From Ruminococcus sp. (GTDB taxonomy: Bacteria > Bacillota > Clostridia > Oscillospirales > Ruminococcaceae), in the NCBI GenBank assembly GCA_015066875.1, contig SVNM01000008.1:1-46271 (forward strand): 46,271 nt of DNA, written 5' to 3'. Positions 1 through 11,740 of the stretch are shown here, piece by piece. Both the position numbers and the translations under genes were made by a program. The notes beneath the pieces are model-generated. The model ran no database searches, was not told the origin of the DNA, and worked only from the letters and a program-made list of their open reading frames with translations. Numbering within the stretch: position 1 is the stretch's first letter; each line of letters starts with the position of its first letter.

Positions 1-986
1 AGGACCCCGAATATCAGGAGATTAACAACGGACTTCTTGCAGAAGAAGGAATAGAGCCTCCCGACTATAACGAGGGCAGAGACTATATGGCGGAAATGAC
101 CGAGTATATGAGCGAGCACAACTACGGCAGAGATGATTATGCTGAGTACAGTCAGGACCCCGAATATCAGGAGATAAACAACGGACTTCTTGCAGAAGAA
201 GGCATAGAGCCTCCCGATTACAACGAGGGCAGAGACTATATGGCGGAAATGACCGAGTATATGAGCGAGCACAACTACGGAAAAGATGACTATGCCGAAT
301 ACAGTCAGGACCCCGAATATCAGGAAATAAACAACGGACTTCTCGCAGAGGAAGGAATAGAGCCTCCCGACTACAACGAGGGCAGAGACTATATGGCGGA
401 AATGACCGAATATATGAGCGAGCACAACTACGGAAAAGATGACTATGCCGAATACAGTCAGGACCCCGAATATCAGGAGATAAACAACGGACTTCTTGCG
501 GAAGAAGGCATAGAACCTCCCGACTACAACGAGGGCAGAGACTATATGGCGGAAATGACCGAGTATATGAGCGAGCACAACTACGGAAAAGATGACTATG
601 CCGAGTATAGTCAGGACCCCGAATATCAGGAGATTAACAACGGACTTCTTGCAGAAGAAGGAATAGAGCCTCCCGACTATAACGAGGGCAGAGACTATAT
701 GGCGGAAATGACCGAGTATATGAGCGAGCACAACTACGGAAAAGATGACTATGCCGAGTACAGTCAGGACCCCGAATATCAGGAGATAAACAACGGACTT
801 CTTGCAGAAGAAGGAATAGAGCCTCCCGACTACAACGAGGGCAGAGACTATATGGCGGAAATGACCGAGTATATGAGTGAGCATAACTACGGCAGAGATG
901 ACTATGCCGAATACAGTCAGGACCCCGAATATCAGGAGATAAACAACGGACTTCTCGCAGAAGAAGGCATAGAGCCTCCCGATTAT
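1..986 (+). repeat. 153-bp in-frame tandem repeat (about 6.5 copies visible)
   Basis: Met-Ala-Glu-Met units begin at 87, 240, 393, 546, 699 and 852, an exact 153-bp period, with a partial copy at the left edge. The copies are nearly identical in protein (a few Lys/Arg swaps) and differ mostly at synonymous positions, such as ATT/ATA in the Ile-Asn-Asn triplet. That suggests recent duplication or gene conversion with selection on the protein. The array continues off the window, so the copy number is a minimum. Confidence 0.95.
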
Positions 987-2300
987 GAAACTCTTGCCTC
1001 AGAAAACAGTACAGAGGAGCTTAATGATTTTTCAGATGAAGGCCTGAACGAGACTCCCGATGATGAAATGACAGAGGTAACGGACAATTTCAGTGACGAA
1101 ACGGAAGTGCCTGAAATTCCCGATGAATCTGACGATGCTCCCGACGATAATGTGTTTGACCTTGACGGAGACGAGCAGATTGATACAGGAGAGACTCCTG
1201 ACGAGTTCACAGAGACTCCCGACATTTATAATGACGATATATGGGACGAAAATTCTGATATCATTGAAGACGAAATGTATGATCCCGATGATATTGCTCC
1301 CGAAGTAACAGAGGAAAACGAAATTACTTCCGATGATGTAACAGACGATGTAACAGATGACGTTGATGAAGAGGTTGAGTCTGATAACAACGTGGAAGAT
1401 ACAAAGGATATTGAAGAGGCTGAAACAGACTCAGAAATAGCTGAAGCTGAAGATATAACCGATGATATTACAGAGGAAGAAGCTGAAATTCCGGGTGATT
1501 TCAGTCACATTTTCGGCAAAGACGAATTTGAAGATATTGTAAAGCTTGACAAGCCCGATTTCTATGAAAGCGGAAGCTTCTACGAACAGGGTATAAACGA
1601 ATTCGGATATGAGGGCACCTGCGGTCCAACATCACAGGCAAATGCAATAAATTCTCTGCTTGGAACAAATGAGTTTACCGAAAACAAAGTGCTTTCAGTA
1701 GCAGTTGAAAATGATATCTGCGAGACAGGTTCTCTTGATCCTGCAGATAACGGCGGTACTACAACTGATCAGTTTATGGAGCTTTACGACAAAATGAACG
1801 AAAAGCTGGACGGCAGACTCAGTGTTGAACGCTTTGACTTCGATAATGCTCTTTCTGTAGAGCAGATGGCAGAAAAGCTTGATGAGGGTGCTGTGCTCAA
1901 TATAGCAGTTGACGCAGATACACTCTGGGATCAGAATTTCCATATTCCCGGCGAGCTCGGACAGGATAAGTGCACTGACCACTGGATTACCGTTACAGGT
2001 GTTGACAGAAATGCCGACGGATCAATAGCAGGCTTCAGCATTATTGACTCAGGCGGTGGAGAAACATATGCAGATGTTGAGAAATATGAGCGTATGTGCT
2101 TTGGCGAGCCCGGAAGAGAAATGATCGACCCTACCTGTATTGCCGTATCAAAAAATCCTGAGTTTCAAGAGCCTTCAGACAAAATTCCCCCAGAGGCGAT
2201 AAGCGGAGGAAGACTTCCCGGCGCTTCTGATGTGGTGTATGTATCTCCGACAGATTCCCAAAGAATCATCAGGCGTCCGACAACGGGACGTTACAGCTGA
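1..2300 (+). CDS. Acidic tandem-repeat protein with C-terminal C39-like cysteine peptidase domain (5' partial)
   Basis: The reading frame is open to the left edge (first full codon at 3), so the true start lies outside; the Met at 87 is only a Met inside the repeat. The visible part has three sections. Up to about 986 there are six full and one partial copies of a 51-residue repeat rich in Asp, Glu and Tyr. From about 987 to 1510 runs a highly acidic, Thr-rich, probably disordered stretch. From about 1520 comes a globular domain with a GTCGPTSQ motif (Cys codon 1620-1622), DHWITV (His codon 1980-1982) and IIDSGGG (Asp codon 2046-2048). This Cys-His-Asp order fits the papain-like Peptidase_C39_2 group. 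Processing, protease or toxin activity is inference, and whether the N terminus carries an export signal cannot be seen. It is the first visible gene of the eight-gene operon and is followed by the 161-aa gene after 34 nt. Confidence 0.8.
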   Translation, partial: DPEYQEINNGLLAEEGIEPPDYNEGRDYMAEMTEYMSEHNYGRDDYAEYSQDPEYQEINNGLLAEEGIEPPDYNEGRDYMAEMTEYMSEHNYGKDDYAEYSQDPEYQEINNGLLAEEGIEPPDYNEGRDYMAEMTEYMSEHNYGKDDYAEYSQDPEYQEINNGLLAEEGIEPPDYNEGRDYMAEMTEYMSEHNYGKDDYAEYSQDPEYQEINNGLLAEEGIEPPDYNEGRDYMAEMTEYMSEHNYGKDDYAEYSQDPEYQEINNGLLAEEGIEPPDYNEGRDYMAEMTEYMSEHNYGRDDYAEYSQDPEYQEINNGLLAEEGIEPPDYETLASENSTEELNDFSDEGLNETPDDEMTEVTDNFSDETEVPEIPDESDDAPDDNVFDLDGDEQIDTGETPDEFTETPDIYNDDIWDENSDIIEDEMYDPDDIAPEVTEENEITSDDVTDDVTDDVDEEVESDNNVEDTKDIEEAETDSEIAEAEDITDDITEEEAEIPGDFSHIFGKDEFEDIVKLDKPDFYESGSFYEQGINEFGYEGTCGPTSQANAINSLLGTNEFTENKVLSVAVENDICETGSLDPADNGGTTTDQFMELYDKMNEKLDGRLSVERFDFDNALSVEQMAEKLDEGAVLNIAVDADTLWDQNFHIPGELGQDKCTDHWITVTGVDRNADGSIAGFSIIDSGGGETYADVEKYERMCFGEPGREMIDPTCIAVSKNPEFQEPSDKIPPEAISGGRLPGASDVVYVSPTDSQRIIRRPTTGRYS

Positions 2301-2334
2301 TTTTGATAAAAAGAATAAATAATGAGGTGATATA

Positions 2335-2820
2335 ATGCAGACTGAACACAATATCCGCAGTGTGATAAAAACCTTTCAGATGAATGCGCTTGGCGGAAAG
2401 AAAATACCCCATGGAGTATCAAACCCGGTATTCAGATATGACGAAAACGGAAATCTGATAATATCGGCGTTTGTGTACACATATTCAGCTGAGGAGCTCC
2501 GTTCAAGAAGCGTAAAGCGTCCGTCGAAGTGGATGGCGATAAATGTACAGACAGGAGAGTTTATCGCTGAATATGACTGCGGTGAAAAGGATTTCTGCAC
2601 AGCTTCTGTGGAGGCTATGTGCGATCTCAATGCGGAAACCGATACAAAATATTCGCCTGAGTACACAAACCAGACTCTTGCGATATTTGATCTGGTGCTC
2701 AGAAAATACCTGAAAACAGGTAAATTTGACAAGGAACTCAATGACGCATATATGTATATGATGCTTAATATGGTGTCAAAGGGCTTTAAAGAATTTTACA
2801 GACAGCTTAACAATGTCTGA
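2335..2820 (+). CDS. Uncharacterised 161-aa protein of the AAA+/membrane operon
   Basis: I do not recognise a family. The protein is soluble-looking, with no signal peptide or membrane segment. The N-terminal half has alternating hydrophobic strands (FRYDENGNLIISAFVYTY, then WMAINVQTGEFIAEY), suggesting a small beta-sheet domain. The C-terminal half, from about residue 95, looks helical with several Tyr/Met-rich segments. The start has a good ribosome site (GAGGTGATATA before ATG). It sits 34 nt after the C39-like repeat protein and 17 nt before the first paralogous membrane protein, so it is almost certainly cotranscribed. An immunity, chaperone or adaptor role for the repeat/peptidase protein is possible from position alone and is not shown by the sequence. 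Confidence 0.75.
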   Translation: MQTEHNIRSVIKTFQMNALGGKKIPHGVSNPVFRYDENGNLIISAFVYTYSAEELRSRSVKRPSKWMAINVQTGEFIAEYDCGEKDFCTASVEAMCDLNAETDTKYSPEYTNQTLAIFDLVLRKYLKTGKFDKELNDAYMYMMLNMVSKGFKEFYRQLNNV

Positions 2821-2837
2821 TGAAAGGGGGAATTTAA

Positions 2838-4583
2838 ATGACCGATGAAGAACTTCAGGAATATAACCGGTTGGTAGACAGATACAACTCGCTTGTCAAT
2901 CAGAACGCTCAGCTTGAGGCTGAAATTCAGAGCGGAATAAGCAACTGCTATACAGTAGCTGGAAATATCCAGACCGTCGGAAAGGGTGTTACTCAGAATG
3001 TAAGTATAGTATCTGATGAGGTAAGCGATGCCGATGAAATAGTAGAGAAGCTTTACAGATGTCTTGTAGATCTTACCGAACGCTATTTCCTCTTCAAGAA
3101 TCTTTCGGAAGCTTCAAAGATGCTTACAAAGTATAATGACGAGTATAACACAAAATTCAAATTCTATAATGAGCTGAGAAGAATAACGCTCGGATATGTA
3201 ATCGGACTCGACGCACATATCGTTTCAAGCGAGAGTCTTCGCAAAAAGGTTGAAAAAGCATATCTTGCCAACACAGATTACTGGCTTGCATACGCAATAA
3301 CCGCAGTAATGCTCTGGGCAAGCAACGAAAAGGAAGCATCATACAGAGCTCTTGATAAGGCACTCAGAATGGACGGCTATAAGGCCTGTGTATTCTTTAT
3401 GCTTATCAACATACGTTTTGAGAGAATCAATGTTGCCAAAAACTGGTATATGACTCTGCTTGACAAAACAGATGTCAATAATATGAGCCCGGAATGGCAA
3501 CACGTGCTCCATGCGTACCTTATCGGTGCTATGAGCAAGGATAAGGAATTCACTGATATGGCATCGGGATATTTCAAGCGTATGCTTGAGCAGACCGAGG
3601 CTACAAGCGCTGATTTCAGCAAGAAGGTTATCGGCAGAGCAAGTTCATTTGCCAAGAGCTTTATTCATGTAACAGAAAATGAGTATCCTCTTATGCACGA
3701 ATGTTGCCCCGAATATCCCGCAATGAAGGAGCTTCTTGCTTCAATGGAAAAAATCGCAATAATGGCTCAGCACTATGATGAGGTTTATCAGATGGAAGAG
3801 GACGAGGGCGAAGGCATCTATGAGCAGATAGAAAACGTACTCTACGACCTTATCAACGGCTATGACGAGCAGGAATTCAAGATTGTAAAGAACATAAACT
3901 ACAATGAGGCAATTCTTGCCGCAAAGGGCGATATGAACAAGGCAAATGCCAAGTACCGTGAGCTTTACGGAGATGAGGACCAGCCTAAAACCTTCGGCGA
4001 CCTTATGATAAGCTGGGCGTTTGCTGAAGACTATAAGCAGACAGATATTACAGTAAAGCGTTTTGCTCTTTCATATCTGAAGGAGCGTATTTCCAAGGGT
4101 GTAACAAATCACTTTGAGCAGGAGTATGATACACTCAAGGATAAATATGACGTTAAGGTAACTACCTGTGCAGAAATTCCGCCTCTTGAACTCAACTGTG
4201 ATGAAAACTCATATGACTCTTCATCAGAAAAGATAACGGCACACTTTAACAAGAACAAGATGAAATATATTCTTTCAGATAAATATATGAAGATATATCT
4301 GTTTATGTGTGTGGGAGCTATACTGCTGATAACGATTGCGGCAATGGCTGCATCAACATCAGCATTTCCTGTATTGCTCACCCTTGGATTAACACTTGGA
4401 ATAGTAAGTGGATTCCTTGTATGGAGATGTTGGGTGGATAAGGTTAAAGAGCTGAATGAAAAATGTCGTTTGTCACTTATCAAGTTCAGAAATACTCTTG
4501 ATGAAATGGCATCGTGGCGCAAGCTTGTAAAAAACGGATTTACGGCTCTGGAAGATTTACAGAATGCTATTGACAAATTCTGA
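2838..4583 (+). CDS. Membrane protein of a three-member paralogous family, copy A (581 aa)
   Basis: No known family recognised. The N-terminal ~90 residues are helical and coiled-coil-like. The middle is alpha-helical and TPR-like, with a Tyr-Trp at 148-149 opening the segment YWLAYAITAVMLW, then ASNEKEASYRALDKALRMD and a FERINVAKNWY segment. A second block carries Gly-Asp at 364-365 and Trp at 393. Two adjacent hydrophobic segments (about 487-505 and 511-530) form a membrane hairpin, followed by a ~50-residue charged helical tail. There is no signal peptide, so both ends probably face the cytoplasm. The same landmarks occur at nearly identical spacing in the proteins at 4602-6242 and 8499-10199, so the three are homologous although overall identity looks low. 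The ribosome site AAAGGGGG lies 7 nt before ATG. The function is unknown; a scaffold or ATPase-partner role is inferred from the operon. Confidence 0.85.
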   Translation: MTDEELQEYNRLVDRYNSLVNQNAQLEAEIQSGISNCYTVAGNIQTVGKGVTQNVSIVSDEVSDADEIVEKLYRCLVDLTERYFLFKNLSEASKMLTKYNDEYNTKFKFYNELRRITLGYVIGLDAHIVSSESLRKKVEKAYLANTDYWLAYAITAVMLWASNEKEASYRALDKALRMDGYKACVFFMLINIRFERINVAKNWYMTLLDKTDVNNMSPEWQHVLHAYLIGAMSKDKEFTDMASGYFKRMLEQTEATSADFSKKVIGRASSFAKSFIHVTENEYPLMHECCPEYPAMKELLASMEKIAIMAQHYDEVYQMEEDEGEGIYEQIENVLYDLINGYDEQEFKIVKNINYNEAILAAKGDMNKANAKYRELYGDEDQPKTFGDLMISWAFAEDYKQTDITVKRFALSYLKERISKGVTNHFEQEYDTLKDKYDVKVTTCAEIPPLELNCDENSYDSSSEKITAHFNKNKMKYILSDKYMKIYLFMCVGAILLITIAAMAASTSAFPVLLTLGLTLGIVSGFLVWRCWVDKVKELNEKCRLSLIKFRNTLDEMASWRKLVKNGFTALEDLQNAIDKF

Positions 4584-4601
4584 ATGGAGGTAAAGTAATA
4601 T

Positions 4602-6242
4602 ATGTCAAATGTGTACAATGCCATTAATCAGCTCAACAATTCAGTGGAAAGCTTTGAATCCAACGTTAATGTGCATGTAAAAAATGTTGATACATCTACA
4701 CGCAAAATTCAGGAAACAGCTGAAGGCGTGTATGAAAAGGTAAATAAATTCCGTACTGATATTATGCATGGTGAGGAAAAGCAGATTGCTCATGAAAACA
4801 TTATGCGTATTGATCAGATAATCAAGGAAAAATTCGGAAACTATGATGAAATCCGTAAGACAATTATCGGTGTTGTACGTGATTTCGATATTAACCTTGT
4901 ACGTAACAGTACTATTGAAGAGCTTTCTGAAGAGCTCTGGATAACAAGCTCAAGATACTGGCTTTCATATGCGCTTCTTGCAGTAACAGCATGGGTAAAC
5001 GATTATCCCGATGTAGCAAAGAACGCTCTTTCCGAAAGCTCAAGAAAGGATAATATCAAAACATCGCTGTTCTTCTGTCTGCTGAATCTTCGTTTTGACA
5101 GAATCGAAACAGCCCGCGAGTGGTTCAAGGTTTATTGCCGTACACTCAATCCGAAGATGCTCAATCAGGAAGCTGCTGTAATGATTCAGGGCTTTATGAA
5201 CGGTCTTTTCGGAAAGGACAAACAGCTTGAGCACGAGGTAATCGAAACAATCAACCACTGGATAAAGATTATTTCGGAGGACGCTGTTCTCTGCCAGAGC
5301 CTTGTTGCCGATTACGAGAATTATTTTGAAAAGTTCAATATGAAGGCTGAGTTCAACTATGAAATGATCCAGAACTACTGCCAGAATTCAGACGAAATCA
5401 AAAGATCATTCACTGATGTTACCAAGTATGACAGCCTTATCCAGCTTATTGAGGATCTTAATGTTGAGGCTGTACCTCATACAGATGAAAACTATAAGAG
5501 CCGTGTTGACGCTGTACTTACAACTCTTATCACCAACTATGACGCTGAGGAAAGAGAGCTTAAGGACGAACAGGCTTATTACAAGCTTGTAATCAACAAC
5601 GAGGGCAATACAGATATTGCCGAAGATCAGTATGAAGAGATGAAAAAGCTTCAGAACGAAAGCTTCAACATCGGAAAGCAGATGGTTGACTGGGTTGTTT
5701 ATGACGATAACACAGAAACCGATGTATCGGTAAGAAAGTTCGGTCTTCAGAGCACTAAGGCATGGTTCCAGACAGCCCTTGAAAACTGGACAATCAAGGT
5801 ACGTGAAAGATGTCCTCTTCAGTACAAGTTCGCTATCGACGAGTGGACAGGTACAAGTAACGGAAGAGATCTTGACGAACAGCGTACAAGCCTCAAGAAC
5901 TTCTTTGAAAACAATAAATTCCGTATGATATGCATCAACACAATCAATATCGCACTTCTTATTGTTTTCTTCATTTCACTTATCATCACAGTTGTATCAA
6001 TCGGAATATGTGCAAACAGCGGATTTACTCCGGCGCTTATAGTGGGAATAATTCTTATGCTGGGCTCAGCAGGAATAATCGCATGGCGCATCAAGGACGG
6101 ACAGAAAAAGTTCCAGCTTCGTGTTGATACGGCAGTAAAGAATCTTGAAAGTACAATGGCACAGATCGTTGAGTTCCAGCGTTACTTCACTGAGAATATC
6201 CGCAAGAAGGACGATGTAATTGCAAAGCTCAGCTTTATATGA
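4602..6242 (+). CDS. Membrane protein of a three-member paralogous family, copy B (546 aa)
   Basis: Second paralogue. It has a shorter helical N-terminal region (about 1-85), then Tyr-Trp at 119-120 in the block RYWLSYALLAVTAWVNDYP, followed by a SLFFCLLNLRFDRIETAREW segment typical of helical hairpin repeats. Gly-Asn at 335-336 and Trp at 364 reproduce the second block of the family. Two strong hydrophobic segments, about 446-470 and 476-496, form the membrane hairpin, and the last ~45 residues form a charged helix. It follows copy A by 18 nt with a clear TGGAGGT ribosome site, and a 62-aa gene comes after it. Its direct adjacency to copy A suggests the two were produced by tandem duplication and may form a hetero-oligomer. 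No enzyme motif is seen. Confidence 0.85.
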   Translation: MSNVYNAINQLNNSVESFESNVNVHVKNVDTSTRKIQETAEGVYEKVNKFRTDIMHGEEKQIAHENIMRIDQIIKEKFGNYDEIRKTIIGVVRDFDINLVRNSTIEELSEELWITSSRYWLSYALLAVTAWVNDYPDVAKNALSESSRKDNIKTSLFFCLLNLRFDRIETAREWFKVYCRTLNPKMLNQEAAVMIQGFMNGLFGKDKQLEHEVIETINHWIKIISEDAVLCQSLVADYENYFEKFNMKAEFNYEMIQNYCQNSDEIKRSFTDVTKYDSLIQLIEDLNVEAVPHTDENYKSRVDAVLTTLITNYDAEERELKDEQAYYKLVINNEGNTDIAEDQYEEMKKLQNESFNIGKQMVDWVVYDDNTETDVSVRKFGLQSTKAWFQTALENWTIKVRERCPLQYKFAIDEWTGTSNGRDLDEQRTSLKNFFENNKFRMICINTINIALLIVFFISLIITVVSIGICANSGFTPALIVGIILMLGSAGIIAWRIKDGQKKFQLRVDTAVKNLESTMAQIVEFQRYFTENIRKKDDVIAKLSFI

Positions 6243-6278
6243 TGAACTTATCAATATATTTTTAAAGGAGAATGAAAA

Positions 6279-6467
6279 ATGGCTAACGATAAAAATAAAC
6301 CAAGCAATGACGATCTCGAGTTCGAGCAGATGATGGAAGGAAAGATCAAGGATAATTTCGGTTCTGCGTCAGGCGGAATCTCACAGGTTAACGACGAAAG
6401 ACTCAAGGAAATGAACAAGAAGCTTCCTTCGTGGAATCTTGAACCTCCGCTTACATTCCTCAAGTAA
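6279..6467 (+). CDS. Small 62-aa operon protein of unknown function
   Basis: A short, charged, soluble protein with no membrane segment, cysteine or recognisable fold. It is rich in Asn, Asp, Lys and Glu and ends with a Pro/Trp-containing tail (LPSWNLEPPLTFLK). It is believable as a gene because it has a strong ribosome site (AAAGGAGAATGAAAA before ATG), fills the gap between copy B and the 172-aa gene (3 nt after its stop), and its codon use matches the neighbours. It is too short and lacks the central Trp-x-Gly turn expected of a WXG100 secretion substrate. A small structural or regulatory subunit of the operon's complex is the most cautious guess. Confidence 0.7.
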   Translation: MANDKNKPSNDDLEFEQMMEGKIKDNFGSASGGISQVNDERLKEMNKKLPSWNLEPPLTFLK

Positions 6468-6470
6468 GCA

Positions 6471-6989
6471 ATGCTTACAGCAGAAAAAAAGGAAATTAGC
6501 TCGCCACCGCAGACGTATTCCGACTGGCTTGAGTGCTTTGAAATCCTGAGAACAAAAAATGTCACAAGGGATACAATAGAGCTTCTCAAAAACGGAAAAT
6601 GTATAGACAGCGACCAGTCAATAGAATTTCTTGAAACACAGCTTCTGATAACCATAAACGCTATGATAAAGCGATATATCGACGCTTTCAGAAGAGATCT
6701 GAACTGCTATATGATGTACAACGAATACGATGGCTTTAACCGTCTGTTTTATGTGCTGGCAAAAAAGCTTGAAGGCTGTATGTTTTTTGTAAATCTTGAT
6801 TTTATGAGCACTCAGTTCCGCAGAGAGCTTTATGATCAGATAAAGCTGAATACGGAAAAATTCTGGAAGGATACATACGATTCCCTGTATGCCCAGTGCG
6901 TAGAGTACAACAACATTTTCCTTGAGGACGAGCTTTTCCTTATAAAACGAATAAAATTGTTTCGTGAATGTGAGTGTATTGAAATATGA
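6471..6989 (+). CDS. Uncharacterised 172-aa helical protein
   Basis: I do not recognise this protein. It is predicted to be almost fully helical and soluble, with many aromatic residues (for example CYMMYNEYDGFNRLFYVLAKK) and no signal peptide. Its ATG is 3 nt after the stop of the 62-aa gene with only a weak ribosome site, so translation is probably coupled. Its stop overlaps the start of the AAA+ ATPase gene by 4 nt (ATGA). That coupling to the ATPase suggests stoichiometric production, perhaps as an ATPase adaptor. This is inference from gene arrangement. Confidence 0.75.
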   Translation: MLTAEKKEISSPPQTYSDWLECFEILRTKNVTRDTIELLKNGKCIDSDQSIEFLETQLLITINAMIKRYIDAFRRDLNCYMMYNEYDGFNRLFYVLAKKLEGCMFFVNLDFMSTQFRRELYDQIKLNTEKFWKDTYDSLYAQCVEYNNIFLEDELFLIKRIKLFRECECIEI

Positions 6990-8485
6990 GTAATTACCTT
7001 GAAACAAAAGAAGAAGTTAAGAATTACATAATAGCAAGAACACCGCTTATTATTATCGACTCTTCAGAACGTGAACGAGTGGAAAGAATGCTTGCGTCGA
7101 TCAGCTCTGAGCTGGGGATAGATATCTTCTATTATACCGACTCAAAACAGGTGGTACAGCTTAATTCTTCAGCACCGGGAATTGACGCAGAGAACGATCC
7201 GCTGGGATTTATGACGTCTTTCTTCCGCAAAAAAAGAAAGTCTACCTTTGTTTTCGGCGATGTAAAGAGAATCAGCGAGGATACAATGTATACCCGCGAG
7301 CTTATCAATGTTCTTTATCTTGCAAAAGAGTCTGATTCTACCCTTATTCTCATTACTCCCGACAGAGTAATGCAGAGAATTGCTCAGTTTGGTATGATAA
7401 CCAAGCTTGATTATCCGCGTCTTGATGAAAGACTTGCTCAGATACGACGCTTTGCAAAGGAATATGACGGACGCTTTACCGTTGAATGGGACGAGGACGA
7501 CGTTATCAAGGCTTCAACCCTTCTGCGAGGCTTTACCGAAATCCAGATCGAGAATATTCTTTCAAATGAAATAGTTTCGGCAAAGGGACTCTACAAGGAG
7601 AACATCTTTAAGCTTACAAGCCAGAAAAGCAAGCTTTATACAGCTGTTTCGTCTATACAGCAGGTCAACGTACCACGCGGGCTGAGTGTTTCAGGCCTTG
7701 AAAATCTGAAAAAATGGCTTAAGGAAAAGCACGAGGTCTTCTTCGCTTCCGATCAGGAGCTTGAACAGTATGGCCTTGATACGCCAAAGGGAATTCTCCT
7801 TGCGGGAGTGCCCGGATGCGGAAAATCCTTTTCTGCCAAAATGGTTGCAAAAGAGTGGGAGCTTCCGCTTTTCAGATTTGATATCGGCTCGATTTACGAT
7901 AAGTGGATGGGCGAAAGCGAACGAAAAATGAAAGAAGCCCTTGAGTTTATAGATAACGTTTCGCCCTGTGTGCTGTGGGTGGATGAAATCGAAAAGGCTC
8001 TGGCAGTTTCAGATGGTGGAAACGATACAAGCAAGCGTATTCTGGGACAGTTCCTCTTCTGGCTTCAGGAGTCGAAAAGCCGTGTGTTTATGGTTGCAAC
8101 AGCCAACGATATATCAAATCTTCCGTCTGAGCTTTTCCGTAAGGGAAGATTTTCTGAGGTTTTCTTTGTTGATCTGCCTACAGCCGATGAGCGAAGAACA
8201 GCTATTATGCAATATACCGATAAATGTTTACATATAAAATTCAAGGAAGAACAGCTTGAAGAGCTTGTTGCCATTTCAGAAGGCTTTTCTTTCTCTGAAA
8301 TTGAGTATGCCATCAAGGAAATAGCTCAGCTTATTCTGATATATGGACAGTCCGGAATAAATATGGACGTAATCAGGGAGCGCTTTGGCACAGTAGTTCC
8401 CATTGAAAAGAGCAACCCCGAAAAGGTTGCGCAAATAAGAAAATGGGGCGAGGAAAGAGCAGTTCCCGCACATAGAATAGATTAG
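6986..8485 (+). CDS. Ycf46-like AAA+ ATPase
   Basis: A 499-aa ATPase. The C-terminal half is a classic AAA+ module: Walker A GVPGCGKS at 274-281, Walker [10 protein letters not shown] from 329, sensor-1 Asn at about 374 (ATAND), arginine-finger candidates at 385 and 388 (FRKGRF), and a helical lid from about 400. The sequence around GLENLKKWL, the Walker motifs and [14 protein letters not shown] matches the Ycf46-like group known from cyanobacteria, chloroplasts and many bacteria. The N-terminal ~225 residues form the alpha/beta domain ([18 protein letters not shown]) that accompanies that group. No second AAA module, membrane segment or protease domain is present, so it is probably a cytoplasmic remodelling motor that works on a partner. 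Its start overlaps the upstream gene by 4 nt, and paralogue C follows after 13 nt, which points to the membrane proteins or the repeat protein as substrate or anchor. Confidence 0.9.
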
Positions 8486-8498
8486 GGAGTGAAACAGA

Positions 8499-10199
8499 TT
8501 GGCGAGTTTAAGTGAAATCCGTTGGAAGGTTTCCGAACAGGAGCGTATCAATTCCCAGTTAAGACAGGAATTGGCACAGCTTCAGAACGGAATTAATCAG
8601 GCAAGCAATAAATGGAATCAGCTTACAAGCAATATCAATAATACTCTGGTAAACGGAGAGTCAAGAGTAAGAAATTCCCACGAATTGACGCTCAAGGCAT
8701 ATGAAATACAGCTTGATATCGAACGTCTTTACAAGCTGTACAAGAATATAGAGCTTGCAAACAAGAAAATCCGTGCTTGTCAGGATAAGATCTATTATGA
8801 ATTTGCAAATTACAATGCAGTAAGAAAAATCGTTGAGGCAATGCTGAATAATATCGAGGTTTCATTCGTAAGTAATGAGACTATCACAAAGGCAGTAGAG
8901 GTAAAGCATCTTCAGCTTCCCGATTACTGGCTTACCTGTGCTCTGCTTGCAATAATGGCATGGCGCAACGATGACAGAGAGCTTGCTGACAAGGCTCTGC
9001 AGAGAGCATGCAAGCTTGACCTTAAGAATGCAAGTATATTCTTTTTCGCATTCCATATGAGAATTCATAAGGAGCTTGTTGCGCTTAAGTGGTTCAACAG
9101 CTACATCAGCTGTGAGCGTACAGGCGAGGATAACAAGAATATCCTGTTTATGTTTTCTATAATCAGCAAGAGCATTGCTGAGGAATGTGGCGACGAAATG
9201 TATACGGCAATCGATAATTTTGTTAACAATATTATTCAGGAAAGACTTAAGGAGGAAGGCTACAGCGAGGAAGAGCTTGTTGAGCGCATAAGAGGTTATC
9301 TCAGCGCAATGAGAATAAACGACGCTGTTGATTATCCTTTCCTTTCAAAGTACTGTAAGGAAATGAGCTTCCTTACAAACGAGCTTATGCTTGCAAAGAA
9401 TAATATAAGAATTCTTGAGTTTATAAGAAAAACAGCAAATGTAACATCAAACGGAAAAATCGAAAGACTGAATGCGTTTATAGATGATATCATTGCAAGA
9501 GCAAATACATCTGAAAACGATGTAAGAAACGAAATCCACTATAATGAGCTTGTAATCTCAAACAAGGGCGATGTGGAAATTGCCAAGGAACAGCATGAGC
9601 AGTGGCTTGAGCACAACAGAACTCAGCTTGATATTCTTTCTGAAATGGTAAACTGGGTATATAATCCCGGCGAATTTGATGTGGGACCCTTTGAAAAGCA
9701 GAAAATGTTTATCATAACAAAGAATCTCAGCCAGAAGGCTGTTCAGCGCAATGTGGAAAGCTACAGAAGCTGTTATAAGAGAAACTTTGATGTTAAAATC
9801 AATGAATACGAGACAAATGCCGATTTCACCAACGAAAACGGCGAGCTGAGAAAAATTGAAAGCTACTTCAGCGAAAAGGCACAGCGTCTTATCGCAATGG
9901 AGAAAACATGGCCCTGTTTTGTATGGTTCGGAGCAGGCGTGTTTGCAACAGTAGGTGCAATAGCAACATCAACTCCTGCGCTTCTTGTAGGAACACTTGC
10001 AGGCGTAGCAGGCGGAGTTTTGAAAATCTTTCTTACCAAGCGCAAGAAGGAGAACATTCAGAAGGATTGTGAAATTGCATCTGCAAATACAAAAACAACC
10101 TTTACACAGCTTATAGCTGATTTCTCAAAGTATGAGGACGAGTACAGAGAATATGACGCTTATTTCGATGAAATCGAAGACGAGTTTTCAAAGCTTTGA
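8499..10199 (+). CDS. Membrane protein of a three-member paralogous family, copy C (566 aa)
   Basis: Third paralogue, last gene of the operon. The start codon is TTG at 8499, preceded by AGGGAGTG. The N-terminal ~110 residues look like a coiled coil (QERINSQLRQELAQLQNGI). Tyr-Trp at 143-144 opens the conserved block YWLTCALLAIMAWRNDDREL, Gly-Asp is at 357-358 in the segment LVISNKGDVEIAKEQ, and Trp is at 386. Two less hydrophobic, Ala/Gly/Thr-rich membrane segments lie at about 471-489 and 492-512, followed by a KRKK cluster that would stay in the cytoplasm and an acidic helical tail. The spacing between landmarks matches copies A and B within two residues, which supports common descent. No catalytic motif is seen. 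It is separated from A and B by the ATPase and two small genes, suggesting an older duplication. Confidence 0.85.
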   Translation: MASLSEIRWKVSEQERINSQLRQELAQLQNGINQASNKWNQLTSNINNTLVNGESRVRNSHELTLKAYEIQLDIERLYKLYKNIELANKKIRACQDKIYYEFANYNAVRKIVEAMLNNIEVSFVSNETITKAVEVKHLQLPDYWLTCALLAIMAWRNDDRELADKALQRACKLDLKNASIFFFAFHMRIHKELVALKWFNSYISCERTGEDNKNILFMFSIISKSIAEECGDEMYTAIDNFVNNIIQERLKEEGYSEEELVERIRGYLSAMRINDAVDYPFLSKYCKEMSFLTNELMLAKNNIRILEFIRKTANVTSNGKIERLNAFIDDIIARANTSENDVRNEIHYNELVISNKGDVEIAKEQHEQWLEHNRTQLDILSEMVNWVYNPGEFDVGPFEKQKMFIITKNLSQKAVQRNVESYRSCYKRNFDVKINEYETNADFTNENGELRKIESYFSEKAQRLIAMEKTWPCFVWFGAGVFATVGAIATSTPALLVGTLAGVAGGVLKIFLTKRKKENIQKDCEIASANTKTTFTQLIADFSKYEDEYREYDAYFDEIEDEFSKL

Positions 10200-10226
10200 T
10201 TGACATTGACTGATAAAACAATAAAA

Positions 10227-10261
10227 GGCATTGCAGATCGGCTTCTGCGGTGTCTTTTTTA
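10227..10261 (+). terminator. Rho-independent terminator of the AAA+/membrane operon
   Basis: An 11-bp stem with several G-U pairs (GGCATTGCAGA / TCTGCGGTGTC), a 6-nt loop, then a T tract of at least six. It lies 27 nt after the stop of copy C. Confidence 0.8.
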
Positions 10262-10304: not shown

Positions 10305-10333
10305 TTGAAATTTGTGTGAAAGTATGGTAAAAT
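10305..10333 (+). promoter_or_regulatory. Sigma-A promoter for the SGNH esterase / symporter operon
   Basis: TTGAAA (10305-10310), a 17-bp spacer, TAAAAT (10328-10333) with an upstream TGG giving an extended -10. The ~70-nt leader that follows contains CCGG inverted repeats (about 10353-10375) but no riboswitch I can identify. Confidence 0.7.
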
Positions 10334-10408: not shown

Positions 10409-11740
10409 ATGAGTAAAATGAAAAAAATTATTGCCTGTATAGCTTCTATGGCTGTGGCAGTGGTATCGCTGGTTTCCTTTACATCAGTTGTTTCGGCGGA
10501 TATTGCTCCAAACCCTGTTATCAGCAGAGATTGTCCCGCTTATTCGGGTTCAAGCCAGAGTACAGCATATGCAGCCTGTGACGCGTATTATTATTCCTCA
10601 TGGTACGGTACGGCTCCCGATTATCTTGCATACGACCTTTCAGCTGTTCCCGAAATCGAAAGAAAAAAGGTTATTGCCGTCTGGTATAACAATACTGCAA
10701 ATTACGACTATACTATAGGAAACTATGGCGGTTCATCAAGCAGTATGCCTACGGAATATACTATCGAGGTCAATGCGTCAGAGGGCGGTGCTTACCCTGC
10801 AGATGGCTGGGTTGTGGTTGATACTGTTACGGATAACACCCTTCACTCTCGTCAGCACCTTGTTGATATGGAGGGCTATAACTGGATTCGTATGAATATC
10901 ACAGGAGCAGACGGCAAGGAGTCAGGCAGTGTGGGCATCAATATGGACGTCCATAACGTTTCCAACGGAGTTTCAGACAGCTGGATTTTCTTCGGCGACT
11001 CAATTACCGCGGGCGGTATGATGAACTGCTACGGTACAGGCTTTGCCGAGCTTGTAAATGCTATCGACAGCAGTTATTTTCCCATTCAGGAAAACGGTGG
11101 AATAGGCGGAATCCTCAGCAGTCACGGTAAGGAGAATATTGACCGCTGGCTTGAAAGCTATCCCGGAAAGTACGTGAGCATTGCTTACGGTACAAATGAT
11201 TCCTGGGGAAATCAGACAGGTGCACAGGGCTATTATGAGAACACAGCCTATATGGTAGAAGCTGTGCTTGCAAAGGGAATGATTCCCGTTGTTCCGAAAA
11301 TCCCATATGCTACAGAAACAGGCGTCAATTCTTATCTTGACGATTACAACGCTATGATTGATAAGCTTTATGAAGAGTATCCACAGGTTGTAAAGGGTCC
11401 TGATTTTGATGCGCTGTTCAGGGAAAATCCTGATCTTTTAAGCGGTGATGGAGTTCACCCCAGCTCAGAAGGCTATGCGGAAATGCGTGAGCTCTGGGCA
11501 AAGACAATGTATGAAAACGTCTATATGGCAGGCAGTGGTGCTCCGGCAATGGGAGATATCAATTTTGACGGCAATGTAAATGTCGCAGATGCTGTTCTTC
11601 TCAGAAGCTATGTGCTGGGAAAAATCGACGGTATCGAAAATTTCAACAGCTCGCTTGCTGATATCAACAGTGACAGTGCTCTTGACGTTTTCGACGTTAT
11701 TGCTATGAGACAGCTTCTTGTAGCACTTAATTCAATTTAA
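10409..11740 (+). CDS. Secreted SGNH/GDSL-type esterase with C-terminal dockerin
   Basis: A 443-aa exported protein. Residues 1-30 are a signal peptide ending in VVSA. About 31-185 is a beta-rich accessory domain. About 190-375 is an SGNH hydrolase: GDSIT with nucleophile Ser198, a GTND-type block (YGTNDSWG, about 259-266) and the C-terminal Asp-x-x-His pair in GDGVHPSSEGY. From about 383 there is a type I dockerin with two calcium-binding loops (GDINFDGNVNVADAV and ADINSDSALDVFDVI). The family removes acyl groups from polysaccharides; acetyl-xylan or other hemicellulose esterase activity docked on a cellulosome is likely, but the exact CE family is uncertain. It is cotranscribed with the downstream symporter (16-nt gap, AAAAGGAG). 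Confidence 0.88.
   Translation: MSKMKKIIACIASMAVAVVSLVSFTSVVSADIAPNPVISRDCPAYSGSSQSTAYAACDAYYYSSWYGTAPDYLAYDLSAVPEIERKKVIAVWYNNTANYDYTIGNYGGSSSSMPTEYTIEVNASEGGAYPADGWVVVDTVTDNTLHSRQHLVDMEGYNWIRMNITGADGKESGSVGINMDVHNVSNGVSDSWIFFGDSITAGGMMNCYGTGFAELVNAIDSSYFPIQENGGIGGILSSHGKENIDRWLESYPGKYVSIAYGTNDSWGNQTGAQGYYENTAYMVEAVLAKGMIPVVPKIPYATETGVNSYLDDYNAMIDKLYEEYPQVVKGPDFDALFRENPDLLSGDGVHPSSEGYAEMRELWAKTMYENVYMAGSGAPAMGDINFDGNVNVADAVLLRSYVLGKIDGIENFNSSLADINSDSALDVFDVIAMRQLLVALNSI

Follow-up and report, generated by a model that had tools for sequence, protein, structure and literature searches.

The window analysed here, a 46,271-nt stretch of DNA from Ruminococcus sp. (positions 1 to 46,271 of contig SVNM01000008.1 in assembly GCA_015066875.1, called C60 below), opens with a run of eight genes that include three homologous membrane proteins (A, B, and C), two small proteins (g5 and g6), and an AAA+ ATPase (AAA). 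The block A-B-g5-g6-AAA-C keeps one gene order, on one strand, in each of the 10 loci spanning it (the window, L003-L008, L018, L046, and L047); this expanded set is conserved in gut and rumen bacteria, and a smaller form exists in other phyla and on mobile elements. Our leading reading, held with about even confidence, is that the block encodes a previously unnamed membrane-anchored AAA+ remodelling machine in which A, B, and C would be the receptors. It is the gene system that is new, as judged against Pfam, NCBIfam, PADLOC-DB 2.0.0, PHROGs, and the open-access papers searched; AAA+ remodelling at the membrane is a known kind of activity.

One gene block in two forms

A chance gene cluster is ruled out because the order and strand of the six core genes are identical in every spanning locus, and a further locus that is cut by a contig end (L009) retains g5-g6-AAA-C. 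The original prediction had treated the genes as one unit and had named beforehand the co-occurrence of the ATPase with at least two of the paralogues as its test; this was found in 10 of 10 loci. Between the closest loci, L004 and L007, dN/dS was 0.06-0.10 for five genes and 0.29 for g6. Matches to a profile of B were present in 6 of 394 genomes of the order, 7 of 391 of the class, and 2 of 398 of the phylum, counts that include the genome of the window each time and are not additive, as the three samples have genomes in common. Of 125 genomes of the genus, 9 carry a relative of AAA at E <= 1e-30, while the cluster is confined to the window and G052; in 7 of these 9 genomes the more distant AAA relatives stand without other cluster genes. 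Independent occurrence, which had been named as a refutation, therefore holds for AAA alone and for A/B/C proteins with g5 in three loci without AAA. Loci L019-L023 pair more distant AAA relatives from the genus with a neighbouring partner gene of ~340-370 aa; L020, L022, and L023 also have an integrase-like gene (names given by inspection), and these loci are perhaps a different small mobile module.

The compact form consists of one A/B/C-like receptor, g5, g6, AAA, and usually a protein called p162, and was found in 13 loci in Bacillota, Pseudomonadota, and Fusobacteriota: L048-L051, L053, L056 (counted here with an AAA cut by a contig end), L057 (on a 5.9-kb contig of G1076, grouping with a Comamonas copy and possibly mis-binned), L071, L072, two Pseudomonadota plasmid records, a Fusobacterium "plasmid" record that with its 2.1 Mb resembles a chromosome, and the Streptococcus satellite phage Javan368. 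p162 is a conserved protein of 157-181 aa in most compact cassettes (L048-L057); it has no Pfam or PHROGs match and is absent from the three-receptor loci seen. A receptor without AAA was found in L054 as well as in L052 and L055, where it follows genes for an SPFH protein, a protein with two transmembrane segments (2-TM), and a Zn-ribbon repeat protein (ZnR). The A/B/C protein of Javan368 has weak PHROG matches, over its hydrophobic end, and none of the 59 pattern matches from a scan of viral contigs with B proved to be a relative. For the window, a recent horizontal arrival was considered and rejected, as the GC content of the cluster is 0.409 versus 0.432 outside, within the range of the remaining window.

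Co-occurrence of g5 and g6 with receptor and motor

Across a set of 114 loci, from which short or duplicate loci were omitted (L001, L002, L010-L017, L026-L045, L058-L070, L157 and later), g5 and g6 follow different partners. The C-terminal motif of g5, [LF]PxWx[LIV]xP[PAT], was present in all 27 loci that have an A/B/C protein and in none of the 87 that lack one, with L052 and L055 as the independent share of this evidence. The g6 profile matched in 24 of 24 loci with both an A/B/C protein and AAA, in 0 of 3 with A/B/C alone, and in 0 of 85 with AAA alone, the independent share being the six loci L071, L072, and L153-L156. Among 24,737 short open reading frames (ORFs) the g5 motif was matched 42 times, overlapping loci counted twice, and always at a cassette g5 gene; in some compact loci Zn ribbons are added to g5. 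Most simply read, this co-occurrence would assign the tail peptide of g5 to the receptor and make g6 the link between receptor and motor. That g5 is instead a tag for the AAA motor was discarded, as the motif persists in L052, L054, and L055 with no AAA nearby. In G692 and G884, two of the genomes carrying these loci, other long AAA proteins (frames of 619-734 aa) were matched only in part, and in the third, G586, there was no match; g6 was not found in any of the three, in a search that is uninformative without a positive control.

Receptors, motor, and a proposed mechanism

Homology between the receptors is well supported by profile comparison (hhalign probability 100% for A-B and 99.9% for C-B), and two hydrophobic stretches lie towards the C-terminus of all three, least pronounced in C. 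In the predicted model of B a coiled coil (residues 26-94) is followed by helical repeats (103-400), a beta hairpin (408-419), two hydrophobic helices from residue 450, and a long C-terminal helix. The split into A, B, and C appears to predate the divergence of the three-receptor loci, since each forms one fully supported clade in the receptor tree; single-copy receptors form a fourth group, and the tree carries a warning about long branches that meet. Both for A and for B, G458 from the window's own family pairs with G516 from another family, which suggests exchange between families. The TTG start of C has a counterpart in L003, which shares the LAS start reading. A matched solved structures only as a coiled coil, and in Pfam A and B match DUF2207_C and DUF5798 weakly, below the cut-offs. 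A likeness of B to tripartite alpha-pore-forming toxins (Foldseek E about 0.4) was set aside as long-helix likeness.

AAA is a classical AAA ATPase (PF00004, 99.3 bits versus a cut-off of 21.2) with Walker A at residue 274, Walker B (WVDEIEK), and an arginine-finger-like RKGRF, and towards its N-terminus it has a degenerate AAA-like copy without Walker A. We infer a Cdc48-class AAA+ motor of which the first AAA copy is degenerate. The protein may resemble Ycf46 of cyanobacteria and plastids, to judge by the motif pattern and the two-part layout. Both the three homologous double-membrane-segment proteins and the single AAA+ motor of the original prediction are accordingly retained.

In the remodelling machine that we envisage, A, B, and C would act as receptors at the inner face of the membrane, each with an N-terminal coiled coil, TPR-like helical repeats, and the hydrophobic hairpin at the C-terminus as anchor. 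The small, disordered g5 would dock via its C-terminal peptide in the TPR-like groove of the receptors, g6 would link the receptor-g5 complex to the motor, and AAA would form a ring that uses its second AAA domain and exerts its pull on either the receptor assembly or a client. The expanded form would add scaffold and output modules, namely a YdjI-like SPFH scaffold, the 2-TM protein, ZnR, a HerA-like ATPase, and g1 as a papain-like protease, together with g2. A remodelling or export machine had been predicted; remodelling remains the leading reading and export found no specific support.

Accessory genes and limits of the cluster

ORF calls agree with the eight co-directional, closely spaced genes predicted (Table 1), the intergenic gaps being 34, 17, 18, 36, 3, -4, and 13 nt. 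The single terminator expected at the end of the operon is a strong stem with a T run (-20 kcal/mol, z -6.7, with 0 of 200 shuffles equally good); a simple consensus scan missed it on the + strand. Neither Rfam nor tRNA searches returned anything in the window. The next gene downstream (10409-11740), which adjoins the cluster, encodes a cellulosome-type enzyme, a GDSL esterase that bears a dockerin type I domain, and has a promoter-like site of its own at 10305-10333 (consensus match only). In L046 a dockerin-like C-terminus, recognised by inspection, lies beside C.

Table 1. Features of the gene cluster in the window.
Feature	Position	Strand	Description
g1	3..2300	+	Acidic protein; six full 153-nt repeats and a partial seventh, then a papain/C39-like domain
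Protease domain of g1	1542..2153	+	Papain/C39-like by predicted fold
g2	2335..2820	+	161 aa, no family
A	2838..4583	+	Coiled-coil/TPR-like, hydrophobic pair at C-terminus
B	4602..6242	+	Paralogue of A
g5	6279..6467	+	62 aa, C-terminal peptide LPSWNLEPPLTFLK
g6	6471..6989	+	172 aa, 4-nt overlap with AAA start; proposed coupler of AAA to A/B/C
AAA	6986..8485	+	499 aa; degenerate AAA-like N-terminal copy and active-type AAA domain
C	8499..10199	+	Third paralogue; TTG start
Intrinsic terminator	10223..10260	+	Stem 10223-10258 and T run

The window starts where contig C60 starts, hence the 5' end of g1 is missing; the assembly breaks within the near-identical coding repeats of this gene. These are 51-aa units at 3-920, and copies 2-6 share 142-149 of their 153 nt with copy 1. 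The acidic N-terminus of g1 varies between loci, with one related unit in L047 and other repeats in L003 and L006. g1 had been described as a C39-like repeat protein. The repeats and a predicted papain/C39-like fold bear this out and place g1 among the papain-like (clan CA) cysteine proteases, with Cys (1620-1622), His (1980-1982), and Asp (2046-2048) each invariant in 4 of 4 sequences, which by the family pattern would form the catalytic triad; the C39 label itself found no Pfam or NCBIfam C39 model at E <= 1. g1 is an optional partner of the expanded form because it lies beside A, with g2 in every case, in just 4 of 10 spanning loci and both are missing from the compact form. Of the 394 genomes of the order, 2 match g1 and both have the cluster, which is present in its three-receptor form in 3 of 394 (hypergeometric P 3.9e-5).

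At least five further genes fit upstream of the window, on contig C64 of the same genome. The g1 repeat recurs at the end of C64 with 79% identity, ending an acidic N-terminus of 214 residues, and behind it, in fitting direction, lie genes for a 904-aa HerA-like ATPase, ZnR, a 2-TM protein, an SPFH protein with C-terminal Zn ribbons, and part of another acidic repeat protein. The HerA-like protein belongs to the HerA/FtsK group (HerA_C 25.7 bits versus a cut-off of 22; DUF87 24.3 versus 23.2). L047, in G516, has the contiguous run ZnR-HerA-g1-g2-A-B-g5-g6-AAA-C, its HerA-like protein being 61% identical to that of C64 over 903 columns, and SPFH-2TM-ZnR stands immediately before A in L004, L005, L008, and L046. 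Together with the g1 repeat on C64, these arrangements argue strongly that C64 continues upstream of C60 as one longer operon. The upstream genes, the compact form, and the links of the g5 tail and g6 to their partners were not part of the original prediction, to which they were not visible. The SPFH scaffold module exists also on its own, as contig C70 of this genome (L152) has a second SPFH-2TM pair (6175-8030) and then a Zn-ribbon protein (8280-9890) without A/B/C or AAA.

Relation to known systems

Beyond the AAA domain nothing named was found in Pfam, NCBIfam, PADLOC-DB, or PHROGs, in line with the prediction that the genes match no known system. A, B, C, g2, g5, and g6 have no match over curated cut-offs in Pfam or NCBIfam, and in PADLOC-DB 2.0.0 nothing better than E 0.43 was obtained for g2, A, B, g5, g6, and C, and E 0.006 over 41 residues for g1. 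The AAA domain does match IetA of the IetAS anti-phage pair (PADLOC models, E 1.3e-27), but it reaches 74.5 bits versus the NCBIfam IteA cut-off of 510, and no S8-type partner protease was recognised, the protease here being papain-like; by this score the cassette falls outside IetAS. No description of the cassette was found in the open-access literature searched, supplements lying outside this scope, and it may be named elsewhere.

Three papers describe systems of related logic. Bacterial VPS4-like AAA+ genes are paired with genes for TPR plus 6TM proteins (PMC11237479), so that an AAA+ protein stands beside a TPR membrane protein, as it would here beside TPR-like receptors, and no ESCRT-III protein is present; in the cassette, by contrast, each receptor has two hydrophobic segments, receptors number one or three, and the g5 tail peptide, g6, and p162 are further differences. 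The same source mentions AAA+ proteins linked to PspA whose N-terminal AAA copy is inactive; these resemble the cassette AAA by description rather than by sequence comparison. In Bacillus subtilis the recruitment of PspA to the membrane is the work of YdjI, an SPFH protein, together with YdjG and YdjH (PMC8581546), and SPFH, membrane partners, and Zn ribbons are likewise in one operon; the cassette, in contrast, has no PspA and has an AAA+ motor, a HerA-like ATPase, and a protease in addition. A/B/C are not members of the ESCRT-III/PspA superfamily by profile comparison (hhalign probability 0.3% versus 8 of 9 PspA sequences, the PspA locus L161 being omitted), and the PspA gene of this genome sits elsewhere, on contig C80. 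Archaeal ESCRT/Vps4 loci share a classical AAA+ motor, coiled-coil clients, and in some cases an SPFH-Zn-ribbon gene (PMC10936438), but they belong to a different cellular domain, and no ESCRT-III, MIT, or wH part was recognised in the cassette. The cassette shares logic with all three and has the defining features of none, as far as these were testable here.

Possible roles of the cassette

Our guess is that the remodelling machine serves as an accessory surveillance machine, either in conflict with mobile elements or in envelope stress. A role in immunity or mobile-element conflict is compatible with the proposed mechanism and is a possibility that we entertain tentatively: the cassette would sense infection or a rival element at the membrane, AAA would relay the signal, and the g1 protease or other outputs would act on the cell. 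Its patchy spread, carriage by a satellite phage and plasmids, nearby recombinases, and protease output are consistent with this. However, there is no defence-island signature, as 13 PADLOC families at E <= 1e-10 were each found in a single neighbour of the 101 scanned (97 of 209 listed, one trimmed copy, two window genes, and the HerA-like gene). An A/B/C protein occurs in just 1 of 50,697 phage records, GC content is near that of the surroundings in most loci, so that no recent arrival is indicated, and the ends of the Javan368 record coincide with the ends of coding sequences, which makes the limits of that record unsure.

A machine for envelope stress or membrane repair, in which SPFH gathers the receptors in a membrane patch and AAA remodels them much as in PspA-YdjGHI or ESCRT/Vps4, is in our view rather unlikely. 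The Zn-ribbon-bearing SPFH with 2-TM beside A/B/C in L004, L005, L008, L046, L052, L055, and on C64 favours it, as do the YdjI, archaeal Vps4, and bacterial Vps4-like TPR-TM precedents above. The unrelatedness of A/B/C to PspA and the position of the genome's PspA gene away from the cluster speak against it, and no SPFH gene is present in the compact loci seen, save the AAA-less L052 and L055. Envelope-stress systems are also usually less patchy. Export of the g1 repeat protein as client is very improbable: g1 and g2 do adjoin A in some loci and g1 is confined to cluster genomes, but 6 of 10 spanning loci and the compact form have no g1 next to A, so that it fails as a general client, and the acidic N-termini on C64 and in L047 (MDDDFGYD, MADEFDTS) are by inspection unlike signal peptides.

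Whichever role applies, four to five families without described function are joined in one recurring unit in three phyla, and the exact peptide and g6 couplings make this operon amenable to simple binding tests. It is conceivable, although we would not expect it, that the cassette is a cross-phylum bacterial counterpart in logic of Vps4/ESCRT and Pex-type machines, with membrane TPR receptors that read a C-terminal peptide code on g5 and are remodelled by a two-copy AAA+ protein via a dedicated coupler, and that it is an immune machine of satellites and hosts, for which the protease and the HerA-like pump would serve gut and rumen bacteria as exchangeable outputs. Should the proposed machine prove right, bacteria would have, next to FtsH and the Psp circuit, a second kind of AAA+ membrane remodeller, and perhaps a new immune machine as well.
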